Virus record (IMG/VR): IMGVR_UViG_3300048927_000120
Location: 1-30,955 of that record
DNA length: 30,955 nt
Direction: 5' to 3' (one strand)
Source of the DNA: a virus
Both the position numbers and the translations under genes were made by a program. The notes below the pieces were generated by a model. The model saw nothing but the letters and a program-made list of their open reading frames with translations, did not search any database and was not told the origin of the DNA. Below are positions 20,165-30,874 of this stretch, piece by piece (position 1 is the stretch's first letter; each line of letters begins with the position of its first letter).

Positions 20165-20674
20165 ATGGCGATGATTCCCGAAACACTGGCCAACCTGAAC
20201 CTGTTCGTCGACGGCGTCAGCTTCCAGGGCGACGTGCCCAGCCTGACCCTGCCCAAGCTCACCCTGAAGATGGAAGAGCACCGCCCGGGCGGTATGGATA
20301 TGCCGATCGAGATGGAGCAGGGCATGGAGAAGCAAGAGGCCGCCTTCACCACCACCGGCATTCGCCGGGAGGCGCTGAAGTTCTTCGGTCTGGCTGATGG
20401 CACCGCCTTCAACGGTACGTTCCGCGGCGCCTTCAAGGGCTTCAAGGGCAAGATCACCCCGGTGATCGTCACCCTGCGCGGCGCGCTGAAGGAGGTCGAC
20501 ATGGGCGACTGGAAGGCGGGCGACAAGGCCGAGATCAAGCACAACGTCGCGGTGACCTACTACAAGCTCGAGGTCGACGGGCGCCTGATCTACGAGATCG
20601 ACGCCCTGGGCATGAAGCGCGTGATCGACGGCGTCGACCAGCTCGCCCAGCAACGCCAGGCCCTGGGCCTGTAA
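20165..20674 (+). CDS. Tail tube protein, P2 FII-like
   Basis: A 169-residue protein twelve bases after the sheath gene, with AAGGAG upstream. It matches the contractile-tail tube family: IPETLANLNLFVDGVSFQGD, LTLPKLTLKMEEHRPGGMD, then GDWKAGDKAEIKHNVAVTYY and KLEVDGRLIYEIDALGMKR. It polymerises as hexameric rings forming the inner tube. Length equals the P2 FII range (172). Sheath and tube in this order are a hallmark of P2-type tails. Confidence 0.95.
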   Translation: MAMIPETLANLNLFVDGVSFQGDVPSLTLPKLTLKMEEHRPGGMDMPIEMEQGMEKQEAAFTTTGIRREALKFFGLADGTAFNGTFRGAFKGFKGKITPVIVTLRGALKEVDMGDWKAGDKAEIKHNVAVTYYKLEVDGRLIYEIDALGMKRVIDGVDQLAQQRQALGL

Positions 20675-20701: not shown

Positions 20702-20998
20702 ATGAGCAAGAAAATCCCCGCTTACCTGCAGATTGATGCCGACCGCGTCATCGTCACCTTGAGCAAGCCCGCCGAGTGTAATGGCGTGCAGGTGGACAAG
20801 CTGAGCCTTCGGGCGCCGACGGTGCGTGACATCCGTGCTGCGCAGCAGCTCACCAATGGTGATGACGAGCAACGTGAACTGAACCTGTTCGCTTCGCTCG
20901 CTGAGGTCGGTTTGAAGGACCTCGAAGGCCTGACCCTGAAGGACTACGCCCGCCTGCAGGCCGGCTATTTTCGCTTGGTGCAAGACGACGAACTTTGA
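20702..20998 (+). CDS. Tail assembly chaperone E (short form)
   Basis: A 98-residue protein between tube and tape measure, as P2 gene E (91). The segments VDKLSLRAPTVRDIRAAQQL and NLFASLAEVGLKDLEGLTLK fit the phage tail assembly chaperone family of E/41-like proteins, which keep the tape measure protein soluble until the tube forms. It ends ...DDEL with CTT TGA C at 20993-20999. In P2 a fraction of ribosomes shift frame here to make E+E'; the equivalent extension exists in this window (next entry). Confidence 0.88.
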   Translation: MSKKIPAYLQIDADRVIVTLSKPAECNGVQVDKLSLRAPTVRDIRAAQQLTNGDDEQRELNLFASLAEVGLKDLEGLTLKDYARLQAGYFRLVQDDEL

Positions 20999-20999
20999 C
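20993..20999 (+). promoter_or_regulatory. Candidate +1 programmed frameshift site CTT TGA C
   Basis: The last sense codon of E, its stop and the next base read CTT TGA C. This is the same heptamer at which the release factor 2 gene shifts +1: tRNA-Leu slips from CUU to UUU while the weak UGA-C stop waits. A +1 shift joins E exactly to the E' frame. I see no strong Shine-Dalgarno-like stimulator directly before it (the bases are GACGACGAA). A -2 slip upstream would reach the same frame and cannot be excluded. Confidence 0.6.
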
Positions 21000-21110
21000 C
21001 CGCGATCCCAGAAGCAGCTGGCCAAGCGGCTGGCGAAGGAACTGGGTTTCTCGGCGATCGAGATCTCGGCGATGTCGTGGATGGACATCGTCTGGTGGCT
21101 CACGGATTGA
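20997..21110 (+). CDS. E' extension (GpE family), probably made by frameshift from E
   Basis: The frame one base ahead of E is open from 20940 to TGA 21108-21110. After the shift point it reads DPRSQKQLAKRLAKELGF followed by SAIEISAMSWMDIVWWLTD, which fits the small P2 GpE family (helical, with a Trp-rich end). It has no ATG, GTG or TTG start of its own in the open part before this sequence. An E+E' fusion joined at CTT TGA C would be 135 residues; P2 E+E' is 142. The coding content is convincing; the shift mechanism is inferred. The stop is 19 bases before the tape measure start. Confidence 0.8.
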   Translation, partial: DPRSQKQLAKRLAKELGFSAIEISAMSWMDIVWWLTD

Positions 21111-21129: not shown

Positions 21130-23736
21130 ATGGCAAAGCTGGCGATCGCGCTGGAAATCGGTGGGGCCGTTGCTGCATCGCTTGGTTCGGCATTCGGCAC
21201 TGCCAAGGGTCATATCAAAAAGCTCGAGGAGAGCGGCAGCCGCGCGAAGGTGTTGAAGAACACCATCGGCGAGACGATCAAGCTCCGAGAGGAATGGAAG
21301 AAAGCGCACGACAGTGGCTCGGCGGCGGCCTCTGGGCTGCTGCGGCGCCTGGATGGCAATCTCGCTGCGCTGAAGAAACAGGGCGTCGAGGTCGGCCGGC
21401 TGTCCAGGGAGTACCAGCGACTTGGGCGTGAAGCGAAAGCTGCAGATCTGCAGCAGAAAGGCCGGCAGCAGATCGATGCAGGTAAGTCGTCGCTCAAGTC
21501 CAACATCGGTGCCACCGTGGTCGGTGCGGGTCTGGCTGCGATCCCGACGAAGATCAGTGCGGACTATCAAGCGATCATCCGTGACATCGCGATCAAGTCG
21601 GACATCGTCAACAAGCCGCAAGAGGCCCAGCTCAGTCGGGCGGTAATCGATACCGCGCGTGATACCGGGATGTCGCGTAACGACGTGGCGGACCTGATCA
21701 ACCAGCTGGTCGGCGCCGGTATGGAGGTGGACAAGGCCATGGCCTATGCGCCGACGGCGGCGAAATTCGCCGTGGGCCAAGGCTCCTCGGGCGTCGACAC
21801 GGCGGCGATGATCCAAGCGCTGCAGCAGAACGCTAAGATCACCGATCCCAAGGTCATGCAGCAGGCGTTGGAGGCCATCGCGTACCAAGGCCAAGCGGGC
21901 AGCTTCGAAGCGTCCGATATGGCCAGGTGGTTCCCGCAGTTGCTGGCCGGCATGGAGAAGAATGGTGTCACCGGGTTGGATGCGGTGACGTCGCTGGGCT
22001 CGATGCTCCAAGTCCAGATGAAGACCGCTGGTAGTGCAGACGAGGCAGCGAACAACTTCAAGAACTGGATTGAGAAGATCGGCGCCGGTGATATCCAGAA
22101 GAACTATGCAAAGGCCGGGATCGACTACCAGAAGTCGCTGAACACCGGCCTCCAAAAGGGCATGAACGTCATTGAAGCGTCCATGGGCCTGGCCATGCAG
22201 TACGTCGAGAAGACCGACCCGAAGAAGGCTCAGGCGATGAAGGACGCTCAGGCCAACATTGATAAGGAGGCTAACCCGGAGAAGGTCAAGGCGTCGCTCG
22301 AGGCGCTTGAAAGAAGCCTGCGCACCGGTGATGTGTTCGCCGACATGCAGGTTAAGGCGGCGCTCACGGCCTACGCGCAGAACCGGGGGCTGTACAACAC
22401 CCTCAAGGCCGATTCGGCTGATGCGAAAAAAGTAGGGGGCATCCTCGACAAGAACCTGGCCGAGCGTCGAGAAACGTCCAAGCAGCAGTGGAGCGAGTTG
22501 GGCCAGGCCGTGGATGACTCGATGCGCAGCATTGGCGATGCGATCCGCCCGGCCACTGACCTGCTGGCCACAGGGCTGACCAAGGTCGCTCATGGCATCA
22601 CCTATCTGTCGGACAAGCTGCCTGGGTTGGTAATGGGCATTTCGGGCGTTGCTGCGGCGGTGATGGCCTTCCTCACGGCACGCAGCGCGATCAAGGTTGG
22701 GCGCGGGGTGTTCAACCTCGCACGGGGCCGCAGGATGGGGCGTGGCGCCGGTGGTGCGGGAGAGCTGCCGGAGACCGGCAATCCGGTGGTCGATGCAGGC
22801 CTTGGCGCGTTAGGCAAGGTGTTTGGCGCGGGTGCTGCGAACGATGATCGTGGTGGCCTCGCGAGCGAGCCGCAGCGTGTGTTTGTCGTCAACGCCAAGG
22901 ACCTCGGCGGGTTTGGCTCATCGGCCGACGCTGGTGAACCAGGTGGTCGACGGCGCCGCCGGCAGCGCAGGGGCCGGGGTGGGCCTGCGCCGCGTCGATC
23001 TGCTCCTACGGGGGCTGTCGGGCGAGTCGCTCGAGCAGGTGCAGCGACAGGGGTGGCGGCCGCAGGTGCTGCGACGGCTGTTGCCGAGGTCGGCCGGATA
23101 GGCCGGATGATGGGCGCGGTCGGCAAGGTGTCGAAGGTGGTCGGCAGGCTCCCGGGCGGGAAGGTGCTCGATGCGGGCATGACCGTGGTCGAGACTGTCA
23201 TGAACGCGAAAACGCAGGACGAGAAGGCCGAGGGCTACGGCAGTGCGGCGGGCGGGTTGGCCGGCGCGCTGGCGGGCGGTGCTGCAGGTGCGGCGCTCGG
23301 TTCGGTTGTACCGGTCTTGGGTACGGCGATTGGTGGTGCCATCGGTGCTGCGATCGGCGGCCTCGGTGGTGAGGGTCTGGGCGGCTGGCTGGGCAAGAAG
23401 CTGTTCGGCGAGGACGAGCAGGTGGCGAAGGCCGACAAGGACAAAGCCGCGCCAGGTAATGTCGCGCGATCCATCGCCGCCGCAGCGCCCGCTCCCACGG
23501 CGCCCGTCGTGGCCCAGGCGCTCGAGCAGGCCAAGCCCAAGGCGGACCCGCCCAAGGTCGACCAGCAGTTCTCCTACATGCCCAACATGCCGATCACGGT
23601 GCAGGGTGACGTCAAGGATCCGCAGCAGGTGTTCCGCTCGCTCGAGGGGATGATCCGCAACAGCTGGGAAACCTGGTCACGGGAAAGCCTGGCTCGTCAG
23701 GCCGCTGGTCAGCTCTTCGATCAACCTCACGTTTAG
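21130..23736 (+). CDS. Tail tape measure protein, P2 gpT-like
   Basis: An 868-residue protein whose length sets the tail length (P2 T is 815). AGGAGGG at 21117-21123 gives a strong start. Residues about 30-120 are charged and coiled-coil-like. The middle holds VIDTARDTGMSRNDVADLIN and MAYAPTAAKFAVGQG, typical tape measure segments. One membrane-like stretch lies at about 495-520 (LPGLVMGISGVAAAVMAFL), followed by an Arg-rich linker near 600-620. A second hydrophobic Gly/Ala-rich stretch lies at about 704-755. The end (FSYMPNMPITVQGDVKDPQQ, then a Trp-containing helix) matches P2-type tape measures. E and E' should chaperone it. Confidence 0.93.
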   Translation: MAKLAIALEIGGAVAASLGSAFGTAKGHIKKLEESGSRAKVLKNTIGETIKLREEWKKAHDSGSAAASGLLRRLDGNLAALKKQGVEVGRLSREYQRLGREAKAADLQQKGRQQIDAGKSSLKSNIGATVVGAGLAAIPTKISADYQAIIRDIAIKSDIVNKPQEAQLSRAVIDTARDTGMSRNDVADLINQLVGAGMEVDKAMAYAPTAAKFAVGQGSSGVDTAAMIQALQQNAKITDPKVMQQALEAIAYQGQAGSFEASDMARWFPQLLAGMEKNGVTGLDAVTSLGSMLQVQMKTAGSADEAANNFKNWIEKIGAGDIQKNYAKAGIDYQKSLNTGLQKGMNVIEASMGLAMQYVEKTDPKKAQAMKDAQANIDKEANPEKVKASLEALERSLRTGDVFADMQVKAALTAYAQNRGLYNTLKADSADAKKVGGILDKNLAERRETSKQQWSELGQAVDDSMRSIGDAIRPATDLLATGLTKVAHGITYLSDKLPGLVMGISGVAAAVMAFLTARSAIKVGRGVFNLARGRRMGRGAGGAGELPETGNPVVDAGLGALGKVFGAGAANDDRGGLASEPQRVFVVNAKDLGGFGSSADAGEPGGRRRRRQRRGRGGPAPRRSAPTGAVGRVARAGAATGVAAAGAATAVAEVGRIGRMMGAVGKVSKVVGRLPGGKVLDAGMTVVETVMNAKTQDEKAEGYGSAAGGLAGALAGGAAGAALGSVVPVLGTAIGGAIGAAIGGLGGEGLGGWLGKKLFGEDEQVAKADKDKAAPGNVARSIAAAAPAPTAPVVAQALEQAKPKADPPKVDQQFSYMPNMPITVQGDVKDPQQVFRSLEGMIRNSWETWSRESLARQAAGQLFDQPHV

Positions 23737-27002: not shown

Positions 27003-27121
27003 TAAAGAGGCGAGCCGGGTGGATGCGTCAACATCCAGCCCGGCCCGCCGAACCCGCAGACCCTTCCTGCAAGTCCAGCCGTGGCCCCTGCCTTGTGCAC
27101 AAAGCGCGGCGAGCCTAACAC

Positions 27122-27137
27122 CTGTTTATCCATACAG
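27122..27137 (+). promoter_or_regulatory. LexA (SOS) box upstream of the adenine methylase gene
   Basis: CTGTTTATCCATACAG has the CTG-N10-CAG form of a LexA box with an AT-rich centre. It ends 16 bases before the methylase ATG, so bound LexA would block the start region. A convincing -35/-10 pair around it could not be fixed by eye. The methylase would then be induced by DNA damage together with prophage excision. Confidence 0.75.
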
Positions 27138-27153
27138 TAAAGACTTGCAATCA

Positions 27154-27948
27154 ATGACCTCTCCAATCATTCCCTGGATGGGCGGCAAACGCCGCCTGGC
27201 CGATCGCTTGATCCCACTCTTTCCCCCTCATGAATGCTATGTCGAAGTCTTCGCCGGCGGGGCCGCGTTGTACTTCATGCGCCCCCAGGCTGCCCCGGTC
27301 GAGGTGCTCAACGACCTAAACGGCGACCTGGTGACGCTCTACCGGGTGGTGCAGAACCACCTCGAGGAGTTCGTCCGCCAGTTCAAATGGGCACTCAGCT
27401 CCCGGCAGATCTTCGAGTGGCAGAAGATGACGCGCCCCGAGACGCTGACCGACATCCAGCGTGCCGCCCGGTTCTTCTACCTACAGCAGCACGCCTTCGG
27501 CGGCAAGGTCACCGGGCAGACGTTCGGTACCGCCACCACTGGGCCGGCCATCAACCTGCTGCGCATCGAGGAGAACCTCTCGGCCGCATGGCAGCGCCTG
27601 GCCGGCACCTACGTCGAGAACCTCTCGTGGCTCGACTGCGCCGAGCGCTACGATCGAGCGCACACGTTCTTCTACATGGACCCGCCTTACTGGCAGACCG
27701 CCGGCTACGGCGTCGACTTCCCGTTCGAGGAGTACGAGCGGATGGCCGACTTCATGCGGCGCTGCAAGGGCAGGGTGATGGTCAGCATCAACGATCACCC
27801 GGACATCCGGCGAGCTTTCGAAGGCTTCCACTTCGAATATCTAGATATCCGCTACAGCAACACCAACCAGAGGCAGGGCAAGGCCGAGGTGACTGGCGAG
27901 CTGGTGATCATGAATTGGCGGCCTTCAGTACTGGAGCAACTTTTCTAG
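27154..27948 (+). CDS. DNA N6-adenine methyltransferase, D12 (Dam-like) class
   Basis: A 264-residue methylase. Motif order fits the D12 class: an N-terminal PIIPWMGGKRRLADRLIPLF (AdoMet-binding start), YVEVFAGGAALYF (motif I), then DPPY at residues 176-179 (motif IV, catalytic) in FYMDPPYWQT. The C-terminal end holds YSNTNQRQGKAEVTGELVI. I start at ATG 27154; the longer frame from GTG 27019 would place the LexA box inside the gene and adds a sequence that looks noncoding. It would methylate adenine in phage DNA, perhaps against host restriction; the target sequence cannot be told. It follows the lysis genes as probable cargo. Confidence 0.9.
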   Translation: MTSPIIPWMGGKRRLADRLIPLFPPHECYVEVFAGGAALYFMRPQAAPVEVLNDLNGDLVTLYRVVQNHLEEFVRQFKWALSSRQIFEWQKMTRPETLTDIQRAARFFYLQQHAFGGKVTGQTFGTATTGPAINLLRIEENLSAAWQRLAGTYVENLSWLDCAERYDRAHTFFYMDPPYWQTAGYGVDFPFEEYERMADFMRRCKGRVMVSINDHPDIRRAFEGFHFEYLDIRYSNTNQRQGKAEVTGELVIMNWRPSVLEQLF

Positions 27949-28373: not shown

Positions 28374-29078
28374 CTAGCTGCGGCTTTTTAAAACCGTAGG
28401 TAGTATCAATTCAGGTCCTTGGCTACGGACATTGCCCACCTCCTTACGAACTGCATGCCACTTGAAATCACTGGCGGCTCGGCAACCGGTTCGCACTATC
28501 TCTTCTGCCTGCTCAATCGAGGTGTCTGACGAGATCCACTCACAGGCAACCTCGGGCGTGAGCACAAGCGGTTTGCGGTCGTGTATATCAACGAGGCCTT
28601 GGTCAGCTGCTGCGGTGATGATCACGAAACCGTCGCGCTCATCTGGCTCGATGCTGGCGTGGACTTCAGCCAGCGCCGCGAAGAACAGCGGGGCCTCGTC
28701 TGCGGCCTGGATATAGTAAGGCTGCTTACGCTTTGGGTCCGCAGGATCGGATATCCACTCGAACCAGCCATTCGCCGGCGCTAAGGCTCGGCCATTTGGC
28801 CAAAGCGACTTGAAGAACTTCCCCGTCATCACCGTCTCGGCCCGCGCATTGATGGGGTCGGGCCGCTTCCCCTTCGCCCAGAATGGCGACCATCCCCACT
28901 TCACTCGATCGACGCTCAACCCTCCAGGCACTGGCCTTATCAGCTCTACACGGGTAGAGGGCGCCACGTTGTACCGGTTGATCCGCTCATGGTCGTACCC
29001 ATTGATGACCACCAGATCGAGGGCCAGCTGCCTCAGGTAGTCGTCCATGCTCTCGTAGATCGAGTACCTCCCGCACAT
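28374..29078 (-). CDS. SOS response-associated peptidase family protein (SRAP, YedK/HMCES-like)
   Basis: A 234-residue protein on the minus strand. The start is the ATG at 29078 so that the protein begins MCGRY: Cys2 must be N-terminal after Met removal because it attacks abasic sites. Other key residues are Asn78 in PINARAET, Glu107 in ANGWFEW and His166 in IHDRKPLVL (the family more often has HDRMP). SRAP proteins form a covalent bond with abasic sites in single-stranded DNA and protect them. GAGGTGG precedes the start. The gene is divergent from umuD, sharing a 106-bp region that holds a LexA box, which fits SOS induction. Confidence 0.93.
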   Translation of the reverse strand: MCGRYSIYESMDDYLRQLALDLVVINGYDHERINRYNVAPSTRVELIRPVPGGLSVDRVKWGWSPFWAKGKRPDPINARAETVMTGKFFKSLWPNGRALAPANGWFEWISDPADPKRKQPYYIQAADEAPLFFAALAEVHASIEPDERDGFVIITAAADQGLVDIHDRKPLVLTPEVACEWISSDTSIEQAEEIVRTGCRAASDFKWHAVRKEVGNVRSQGPELILPTVLKSRS

Positions 29079-29118
29079 ACCCACCTCGCTCGTTTGTCGG
29101 CTGCCTCGCGTCCGCGCA

Positions 29119-29147
29119 TTGACGTAAGAACGGTCTGACAGTTTACT
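29119..29147 (+). promoter_or_regulatory. Predicted umuDC promoter overlapping the LexA box
   Basis: TTGACG (29119-29124) and TTTACT (29142-29147) are separated by 17 bases, matching the sigma-70 consensus at five and four of six positions. The -10 element runs into the LexA box at 29146, so LexA binding would block RNA polymerase. On the minus strand the same box contains TATATT (29158-29153), a possible -10 for the SRAP gene, though I see no good -35 for it. Confidence 0.6.
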
Positions 29148-29161
29148 GTATGAATATACAG
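29146..29161 (+). promoter_or_regulatory. LexA (SOS) box between the SRAP and umuD genes
   Basis: CTGTATGAATATACAG fits CTG-N10-CAG with an AT-rich, nearly symmetric centre, close to the ideal SOS box. It is 23 bases before umuD and 67 bases before the divergent SRAP start. One box could control both directions. Confidence 0.88.
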
Positions 29162-29184
29162 CTATTCATTTGAGTTGATCTGCC

Positions 29185-29613
29185 ATGACCATCACCTTCC
29201 TGGGCGCGCCGACGGGCGGCCCTGCGCTGCTGCCGCTGTATTCGTTCCGTGTGCCGGCCGGATTCCCTTCGCCAGCGGCGGATCACCTGGAGCGCCATAT
29301 CTCCCTCGATGAGCTGTTCGACCTGCGTGCCCCGCACGTGTACCTGGTGCAGGTGGAGGGCGACAGCATGCAGGGCGCCGGGATCTTCTCGGGCGACCTT
29401 CTTATCGTAGACCGCAGCAAGGAGGCCGAGCACGGCGACATCGTGATCGCCGCGATCAACGCCGAGCCCGTCTGCAAACGCCTTTATCGTCGCGACGGCG
29501 TGCTGGTCCTGCAATCGGAGAATCCAGCCTACCCCCCGCGCCACGTCATGGAAGGCGACGACCTGGTCCTCTGGGGTGTGGTTCGCTACAGCGTGCGCGA
29601 CCATGCCCAGTGA
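29185..29613 (+). CDS. umuD: UmuD-like polymerase V accessory protein (S24/LexA-type self-cleaving)
   Basis: A 142-residue protein of normal UmuD length. The self-cleavage site is Ala25-Gly26 in FRVPAGFPSPA; the catalytic pair is Ser61 in VEGDSMQGAGI and Lys98 in EPVCKRLY, spaced as in E. coli UmuD (Ser60, Lys97). RecA filaments stimulate cleavage to UmuD', which joins UmuC as polymerase V for error-prone bypass of damage. E. coli cuts at Cys-Gly; Ala-Gly as here is the LexA form. It is followed by umuC with an 11-base overlap and lies behind a LexA box. Confidence 0.95.
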   Translation: MTITFLGAPTGGPALLPLYSFRVPAGFPSPAADHLERHISLDELFDLRAPHVYLVQVEGDSMQGAGIFSGDLLIVDRSKEAEHGDIVIAAINAEPVCKRLYRRDGVLVLQSENPAYPPRHVMEGDDLVLWGVVRYSVRDHAQ

Positions 29614-30874
29614 CCAGGTGTTCGCGCTGATCGACTGCAACTCGTTCTACGCGAGCTGCGAGCGCGTGTTCCGGCCGGATCTGGCCAAGACGCCCATCGT
29701 GGTGCTGAGTAACAACGACGGCTGTGTGATTGCCAGGTCATACGACGCCAAGCCCTACGTGAAGATGGGCGAGCCCTATTTCCAGGCCAAGGAGAAGCTG
29801 CGGCGGCATGGCATCGTGGCGTTCTCGTCCAACTATGCGCTGTATGGCGACATGAGCGAGCGGGTCATGTCGCTGATCGAGGCGATGGTGCCAGCCAGCG
29901 AGGTGTATTCGATCGACGAGTGTTTCGCCGACCTGACGGGCGTGCAGGGGAGCCTGACCCAGTTCGGCCGGGAGGTGCGTGCCAAGATACTGCGCTGTAC
30001 CGGCATCCCCGTCGGTGTGGGCATCGCCCGCACCAAGACCCTGGCAAAGCTCGCCAACCACACTGCCAAGCGCCTGCAGGCGCATACGGGCGGGGTGGTC
30101 GATATCACTGATGACTTCAAGCGCGACTGGGTACTGCGCAACACCGAGGTGAAAGAGGTGTGGGGCATCGGCCGGCGAATGACGGCGCACCTCGAGGCGA
30201 TGGGCATCCGCATGGCCATGGACCTGGCGAAGGCCGACCCTCGAATGCTGCGCGACAAATTCAGCGTGGTGGTGGAGAAGACCGCGCGCGAGCTCGCCGG
30301 CACGCCCTGTCTCGAGCTGGATGAGGCTGACCCGCCGAAGCAGGAGATCTGCTGCAGTCGGATGTTTGGCAAGCGGCTGACGGAGCTGGCACCGATCAAA
30401 CAGGCGGTGGCCACCTACACGGCGCGAGCGGCGGAGAAGCTGCGCGCTCAGGGATCGGTATGCAAGCGCATGCGGGTCAGCATCCGTACTGGGATGTTCA
30501 ATCCGGACGAAGCTAAGTATGCCAAGGGCGCCTTGGTCGAGCTGCCATACCCAACCAACGATACGCTGCTGCTCACCAGGGCGGCCACTGAAGCGGCGGC
30601 GCAGGTCTACCGCTCGGGTCTCCGCTATAGCAAGGCCGAGGTTCTGCTGATGGATCTGCGGCAGCCAGGGGAGTTCAGCGATGATCTGTTCGCAATGACG
30701 CAGCCGGTGGCTTGCGATCGACTGATGTCGATGCTGGACGAAATCAACGGCAAGTACGGCCGAGGGACGATGCGCACGGCCAGCGTCCCCGACACCCCAG
30801 ACTGGGGGATGCAGCGCGAGATGATGAGTCGTTCGTACACAACGCGGATCGATCAGCTATGGCGAGTCCGGTAG
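29603..30874 (+). CDS. umuC: UmuC-like translesion DNA polymerase (Y family)
   Basis: A 423-residue Y-family polymerase, the same size as E. coli UmuC (422). I start at ATG 29603, inside the end of umuD; the frame upstream only overlaps umuD. Catalytic acids are Asp11 in ALIDCNSFYASCE and Asp105/Glu106 in VYSIDECFADLTG. The segment VPVGVGIARTKTLAKLANH-type follows, here IPVGVGIARTKTLAKLAN, then the helix-hairpin-helix-like VWGIGRRMTAHLEAMGI. The end SRSYTTRIDQLWRV matches UmuC. The clamp-binding motif that is QLNLF in E. coli appears as SDDLF here. With UmuD' it would carry out mutagenic bypass; as prophage cargo it may raise host survival and mutation after damage. Confidence 0.95.
   Translation: MPSDQVFALIDCNSFYASCERVFRPDLAKTPIVVLSNNDGCVIARSYDAKPYVKMGEPYFQAKEKLRRHGIVAFSSNYALYGDMSERVMSLIEAMVPASEVYSIDECFADLTGVQGSLTQFGREVRAKILRCTGIPVGVGIARTKTLAKLANHTAKRLQAHTGGVVDITDDFKRDWVLRNTEVKEVWGIGRRMTAHLEAMGIRMAMDLAKADPRMLRDKFSVVVEKTARELAGTPCLELDEADPPKQEICCSRMFGKRLTELAPIKQAVATYTARAAEKLRAQGSVCKRMRVSIRTGMFNPDEAKYAKGALVELPYPTNDTLLLTRAATEAAAQVYRSGLRYSKAEVLLMDLRQPGEFSDDLFAMTQPVACDRLMSMLDEINGKYGRGTMRTASVPDTPDWGMQREMMSRSYTTRIDQLWRVR

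Follow-up and report, generated by a model that had tools for sequence, protein, structure and literature searches.

The locus described here raises the question of how two overlapping reading frames of a phage tail gene are joined into a single protein. The window, that is the whole stretch of viral DNA that was analysed (30,955 nucleotides, nt; positions 1 to 30,955 of IMG/VR record IMGVR_UViG_3300048927_000120), contains on its plus strand gene E (20702..20998), an open reading frame (ORF) whose frame-0 product of 98 amino acids (aa) is a tail assembly chaperone (PF10109 Phage_TAC_7, E-value 4.6e-23; phrog_166 tail protein, E-value 5.8e-24). An extension, E' (AWCKTTNFDPRSQKQLAKRLAKELGFSAIEISAMSWMDIVWWLTD), is encoded on the same strand in the +1 frame (20973..21110, with its stop TGA at 21108-21110), and the translated fusion, E+E', has 135 aa for any shift position within the overlap, which is the length given by the initial annotation. 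The latter proposed that the two frames are joined at the heptamer CTTTGAC (20993..20999, plus strand), which comprises the last codon of E, its stop and one further base (the 3' end of E reads GAC GAA CTT TGA C) and is read as Phe (TTT) and Asp (GAC) in the +1 frame. The end of E and the direction of the shift were borne out by our analysis; the position was not. On comparative grounds, we are highly confident that E+E' would be made by programmed +1 ribosomal frameshifting at a different site, UUU_CGC (20969..20974, plus strand), which sits 24 nt upstream of the last E codon (CTT) and the stop.

The evidence comes from relatives of gene E. To 80 + 80 relatives taken from viral contigs and named genomes, almost all from Pseudomonas, a further 161 loci, with more divergent members, and phage records were added. 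The comparison covered 323 loci, 322 of which have E'. The non-redundant set, to which the counts given below refer unless otherwise stated, consists of 176 relatives that are less than 97% identical over 235 nt. In the window, the +1 frame is closed upstream by a TGA (20937..20939, plus strand, located from the sequence and the open-frame length), and therefore the shift must fall downstream of it. From this TGA to position 21107 the frame contains no stop and holds the GpE'-like sequence DPRSQK...MDIVWWLTD. As already annotated, the extension lacks a start of its own, since neither ATG nor GTG nor TTG is present in the +1 frame of the window upstream of the E' domain. The +1 reading of E' is kept in relatives as distant as 58-61% identity in E, whereas relatives show no conservation of the -1 reading beyond the junction. 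By this comparison E' is a real extension, and the +1 E' of the relatives supports the earlier claim of a +1 shift, unlike the -1 shift of P2 and the -2 shift of Mu.

The position of the shift is indicated by an invariant codon pair. TTT is found at the slip codon in 176/176 relatives, followed by CGC in 158 and by CGT in 18, and all 322 loci with E' have either TTT CGC or TTT CGT. The single exception among the 323 loci, L227, has TTC ATG and no E'; its gene E (L227:1495-1791) is stranded, no tape measure gene was seen behind it, and the locus looks like a prophage remnant. When third-position steps were counted on a tree built without codons 0-9 of the slip-site region, none was found at the slip Phe codon, as compared to 26 at the second conserved Phe codon, 12-41 at nearly all of the remaining conserved two-fold codons, and a mean of 26 (minimum 11) over the 35 codons upstream of the slip site. 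TTT is kept at this place although the hosts prefer TTC. In fact, TTT accounts for 691 (5%) of the 13274 Phe codons in a related host chromosome, the others (12583) being TTC; these codons were counted over 1.6 Mb of a chromosome carrying a relative of gene E, with genes called by a simple codon-usage method. The genes of the window show the same preference (TTC 210/243, TTT 33/243). The codon preceding TTT is TAC in 52 relatives, and TAT and TAC change 16-17 times on the tree, which indicates that the bases just upstream of TTT are free to vary.

From TTT onward, the sequence codes in two frames. The dual-coded stretch (20972..20998, plus strand) reads RLVQDDEL-stop in frame 0 and AWCKTTNFD in frame +1, and its onset is marked by a drop in third-position steps: they average 26 per codon before the slip codon and 9.5 after it, with the break directly behind this codon. 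Codons 1-8 after TTT total 76 steps, as compared to at least 143 for any eight upstream codons. Codons -10 to -1 before TTT undergo ordinary synonymous change, and therefore the +1 frame is not selected upstream of TTT. The +1 peptide that starts at TTT is conserved as F (176/176), A/V, W (176/176) and C/S/T. The TGG codon of this Trp straddles two codons of E, and the residue is kept despite changes from Leu to Met and from Val to Glu/Asp in frame 0. According to this relation between the frames, the residues F-[A/V]-W-[C/S/T] enter a protein only with a shift at or before the codon after TTT. Among the codons of the overlap and those at the boundary of the constrained region, full re-pairing in the +1 frame is offered only by UUU_C.

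A naturally duplicated tail chaperone was observed in several relatives, in which one ORF holds two E domains in tandem, in frame and spaced by about 97-100 codons. The arrangement is present in L313-L318, L320-L323, L327, L328, L333, L335, L341, L298, L305, L307, L311 and L348/L362, and 19 distinct ORFs of this kind were counted; several of them are 193-196 aa long, and in four examples the halves are 46-57% identical. The first copy, after which there is no E', has at the homologous codon TCN (Ser), or GCG (Ala) in L348; the second copy, which is followed by E', has TTT CGY. As judged from these sequences, TTT is lost where E' does not follow and is retained only at positions from which a +1 shift would enter E'.

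The R-pyocin types (P. aeruginosa type) are informative in another respect. Here E has 103-114 aa and its stop lies inside the E' coding region; no stop is present at the place of CTTTGAC, and both TAC TTT CGY and the +1 E' are kept. The tube gene of one such locus, L178, matches R2-pyocin PA0623 (PDB 6pyt, E-value 6.7e-92). The Pseudomonas phage studied here and the R-type pyocins, which are killing particles that resemble phage tails, would very probably make the long chaperone via a one-base skip at UUU-CGC. In the literature searched, which mostly excluded subscription papers, we found no description of frameshifting in the chaperone gene of the R-pyocins, and the predicted second product of this gene, apparently undescribed, would matter for how the particles are built.

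Conservation at the E stop is of a different kind. CTTTGAC is present once on the plus strand of the window, which for a 7-mer in 31 kb has little meaning by itself, and CTT_TGA_C is found in 51/176 relatives. The variants at this place are CTT_TGA_T (27), GTT_TGA_C (21), GTT_TGA_T (20), GTT_TAA_C (19) and, more rarely, GTT_TAG_C (5), ATT_TAG_C (3) and others, so that the codon before the stop may also be GTT, ATT or TTT in place of CTT. The stop is TGA in 126 relatives, TAA in 28 and TAG, which is not a release factor 2 codon, in 8; the remaining 14, which include the P. aeruginosa (R2-pyocin) type, have none. NTT_T is strictly kept wherever the stop is present, and a +1 Phe is found at this place in 162/176 relatives, followed by Asp, Asn or Ser. 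The conservation of the TT-T around the E stop is accounted for by this +1 Phe codon. Near the same place, L184 reads CTT TGC and L187 reads CTT CGC, and in L326 the usual E stop is lost, TTT CGC is retained and E' is still in the +1 frame. Since E' stays in the +1 frame in relatives without the stop, the shift cannot need it. From the aligned sequences, CTTTGAC is not the conserved shift site, and the dependence on release factor 2 that had been proposed is at odds with a stop that varies in type and may be absent. The initial annotation suggested checking whether CTTTGAC is invariant across related prophages; the heptamer varies freely, and it is TTT_CGY, 24 nt upstream, that is invariant. 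The opposite outcome that it envisaged, relatives lacking CTTTGAC with a conserved slip site upstream, resembles what is observed, except that the upstream site would be of the +1 and not of the -2 type.

From these data we infer ribosomal slippage through a movement of the P-site tRNA-Phe. With UUU (20969-20971) in the P site, tRNA-Phe (anticodon GAA) would pair with a wobble G-U; by slipping one base forward to UUC (20970-20972) it would attain full pairing, and the next codon would be GCU (20973-20975). Reading would go on as GCU UGG UGC AAG ACG ACG AAC UUU GAC..., and the fusion would carry AWCKTTNF in place of RLVQDDEL, followed by E'. The E stop would have no essential part, its TTTGAC overlapping the +1 codons for Phe-Asp. 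As in lambda and P2, a small share of E+E' beside E might connect the tape measure with the tube subunits, with a chaperone role like that of P2 E+E' and lambda GT. No junction peptide for a slip on UUU in this chaperone was found in the literature searched.

Several observations weigh against frameshifting at UUU_CGC. No conserved RNA structure was detected by alifold in the 60 nt or the 111 nt downstream (z 0.5 and 0.3), nor was a well-placed Shine-Dalgarno-like stretch, the anti-Shine-Dalgarno scan around TTT giving weak pairing. Pfam searches with E' alone and with the +1-type E' gave no significant match. CGC is the commonest Arg codon in the related host, and a hungry A site can therefore be discounted as the cause. 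Host genes do not avoid TTT_CGN (60 seen vs. 38 expected), which is over-represented in them like most other NNT_CGN pairs, and TTT CGC occurs in frame in three other genes of the window. The lack of avoidance and these in-frame occurrences suggest that the motif alone is probably weak. A low efficiency of about 1%, by analogy with the influenza and PLEKHM2 sites discussed below, would fit both an unavoided motif and a chaperone needed in small amounts. As for the codon after TTT, the first bases of CGN may be held by E, where they encode Arg, and the last base by the +1 frame. Two further elements were noted around the site: a 3-bp pair upstream (z -3.1, alifold), too small to use, and an AGGA-like stretch about 26-32 nt before TTT, which was rejected as a Shine-Dalgarno stimulator as being too distant.

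The shift could be placed elsewhere or be of another nature. According to the original proposal, the P-site tRNA would slip by +1 on CTT at the stop, in a prfB-like manner, with the dosage set via release factor 2. The window and 51 relatives do carry the prfB heptamer unchanged, and 162 relatives have the E stop at that place with NTT_T strictly kept where it is present; but CTT is replaced by GTT, ATT or TTT, TGA by TAA or TAG, and the stop is missing in 14 relatives, while the conserved TTT of NTT_T is accounted for as the +1 Phe codon. Moreover, a shift at the stop would leave unexplained both the TTT 24 nt upstream and the Trp that is kept in 176/176 relatives between the two sites, and the sequence lacks a prfB-like Shine-Dalgarno stimulator about 3 nt before CTT, as the initial annotation had observed. 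We consider this explanation very unlikely. It is also conceivable that both sites operate, UUU_CGC being the main one and a shift at the stop adding, in the CTT_TGA_C lineages, a minor fusion of the same length. The frames in the window fit this arrangement and slippage at CUU_UGA_C is established for prfB; however, sequence conservation does not call for it and CTT_TGA_C is missing in close relatives, so that we regard it as unlikely.

A -2 slippage at or before TTT, as in phage Mu, would lead to the same frame as a +1 shift, and the description of PF10109 names Mu gp41. However, on TAC TTT, the sequence present in 52/176 relatives, the tRNA-Phe would come to sit on ACU with two mismatches, and the recurrent TAT/TAC changes show that the upstream bases are free, which makes this possibility highly improbable. 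We assign a negligible probability to the synthesis of E' from its own start codon or via transcriptional slippage, in favour of which nothing was found: besides the lack of a start codon in the window described above, the +1 peptide is conserved from TTT, and the site holds no run longer than TTT or TTTT, which is too short for usual polymerase slippage.

In the window, gene E and E' are preceded by the tail tube protein gene (20165..20674, plus strand; PF04985, E-value 1.4e-58) and directly followed, after the E' frame, by the tape measure protein gene (21130..23736, plus strand; PF10145, E-value 9.9e-26). The region 4868-25885 is a head-tail mosaic, in which lambda-type head genes (GpA terminase, lambda-family portal) are combined with a P2-type contractile tail module; the sheath matches those of VHML-like and WO phages at about 39-45%. 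A phage gene for a D12-class N6-adenine DNA methyltransferase is located at 27019-27948. An SOS-type cargo region at 28374-30874 contains SRAP (SOS response associated peptidase) on the minus strand and, beside it on the plus strand, an S24 peptidase/Y-family polymerase pair (UmuDC-like).

The E/E' pair shares with P2 gene E/E+E' and its -1 relatives (FoX, Persinger, Bas97, Mica, WO) the order tube-E-E'-tape measure, the PF10109 chaperone, slippage on a Phe TTT close to the 3' end of E, and E' homology via phrog_10636. The latter is matched by the +1-type E' of relatives (E-values 1.1e-4 and 0.0036) and by a -1-type E' (0.0041); the window's own E' gave no match to it. The shift of P2 is -1, at T_TTT_TTG, whereas E' is in the +1 frame in all 322 relatives that have it. 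A class-wide genome search gave few matches, and it was an order-wide search that yielded this -1/+1 contrast. In relatives that are about 33-44% identical, E' is encoded in the -1 frame, for instance downstream of A_AAT_TTT or T_TTT_TTG (FoX5, Persinger, Bas97, Alexa, PPpW-3, Mica, Mano, AcaML1, Arya, MQ-4 and several genomes), and VHML, VP58.5, WO and ZRG1 are also -1. In the E tree, which is based on few columns, the E proteins of the +1 type group together as a single clade (support 100/99), with long branches outside it; the simplest history would be that the direction switched once, from -1 to +1, in the lineage of Pseudomonas. The shift direction of a conserved chaperone pair can thus apparently flip with the protein architecture kept.

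Tail chaperones with -1, -2 or +1 shifts are known, and in lambda the ratio of the two products is 30:1 (PMC5009743). A +1 shift in a phage tail gene is also found in Listeria PSA/A118/A500; there it takes place at CCC_UGA, a proline codon followed by a stop, in a structural protein and not in a chaperone (PMC5009743). The prfB site CUU_UGA_C has in common with our locus the +1 direction and the identical heptamer in the window; here, however, conservation of the signal does not extend to the stop, which varies in type, no Shine-Dalgarno element is present and nothing suggests autoregulation.

The site itself is like those of influenza A PA-X, in which UUU_CGN was mapped as a +1 site with peptide evidence (PMC3498833), of plant amalgaviruses, for which the same motif was proposed (PMC5052127), and of human PLEKHM2, whose almost identical site was defined by junction peptides (PMC12551717). 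All share an invariant UUU slipping to UUC in the P site, with CGN next. In influenza and PLEKHM2 the slippery site alone reportedly suffices, with an efficiency of about 1% (PMC12551717). The ribosomes of all three systems are eukaryotic, and in influenza and PLEKHM2 UUU is preceded by UCC, whereas here it is preceded by TAY. No bacterial example of UUU_CGN was found in the literature searched, with the same exclusion as above. In archaea, TTT-CGC was proposed for the tail chaperone of HF1-group haloviruses (PMC7230728), and in halovirus HF2 (L375) we found that HrrHF2_550 ends with AAG TTT CGC AGA TAG and an open +1 frame. A tail assembly chaperone pair, the +1 direction and TTT CGC near the first stop are shared with our locus, but the host is archaeal, the genomes are few, and the stop comes two codons after the start of the A-site codon CGC; the HF2 site is apparently a convergent UUU_CGN. 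Neither Firth et al. (2012; PMC3498833) nor Nibert et al. (2016; PMC5052127) settled why UUU is followed by CGN. This Arg codon is described as rare in the influenza, amalgavirus and PLEKHM2 systems, whereas a conserved case in bacteria with CGC, which a related host uses more often than any other Arg codon, argues against an explanation by codon rarity and brings the question within reach of tractable hosts such as E. coli and P. putida. Taken as one joint statement, we give somewhat better than even chances to UUU_CGN being a bacterial programmed +1 site that works with no additional signal and on an abundant Arg codon in the A site, hence not through tRNA scarcity, that arose independently in bacterial phage tails and in archaeal and eukaryotic viruses, and on which the assembly of P. 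aeruginosa R-type pyocins depends.
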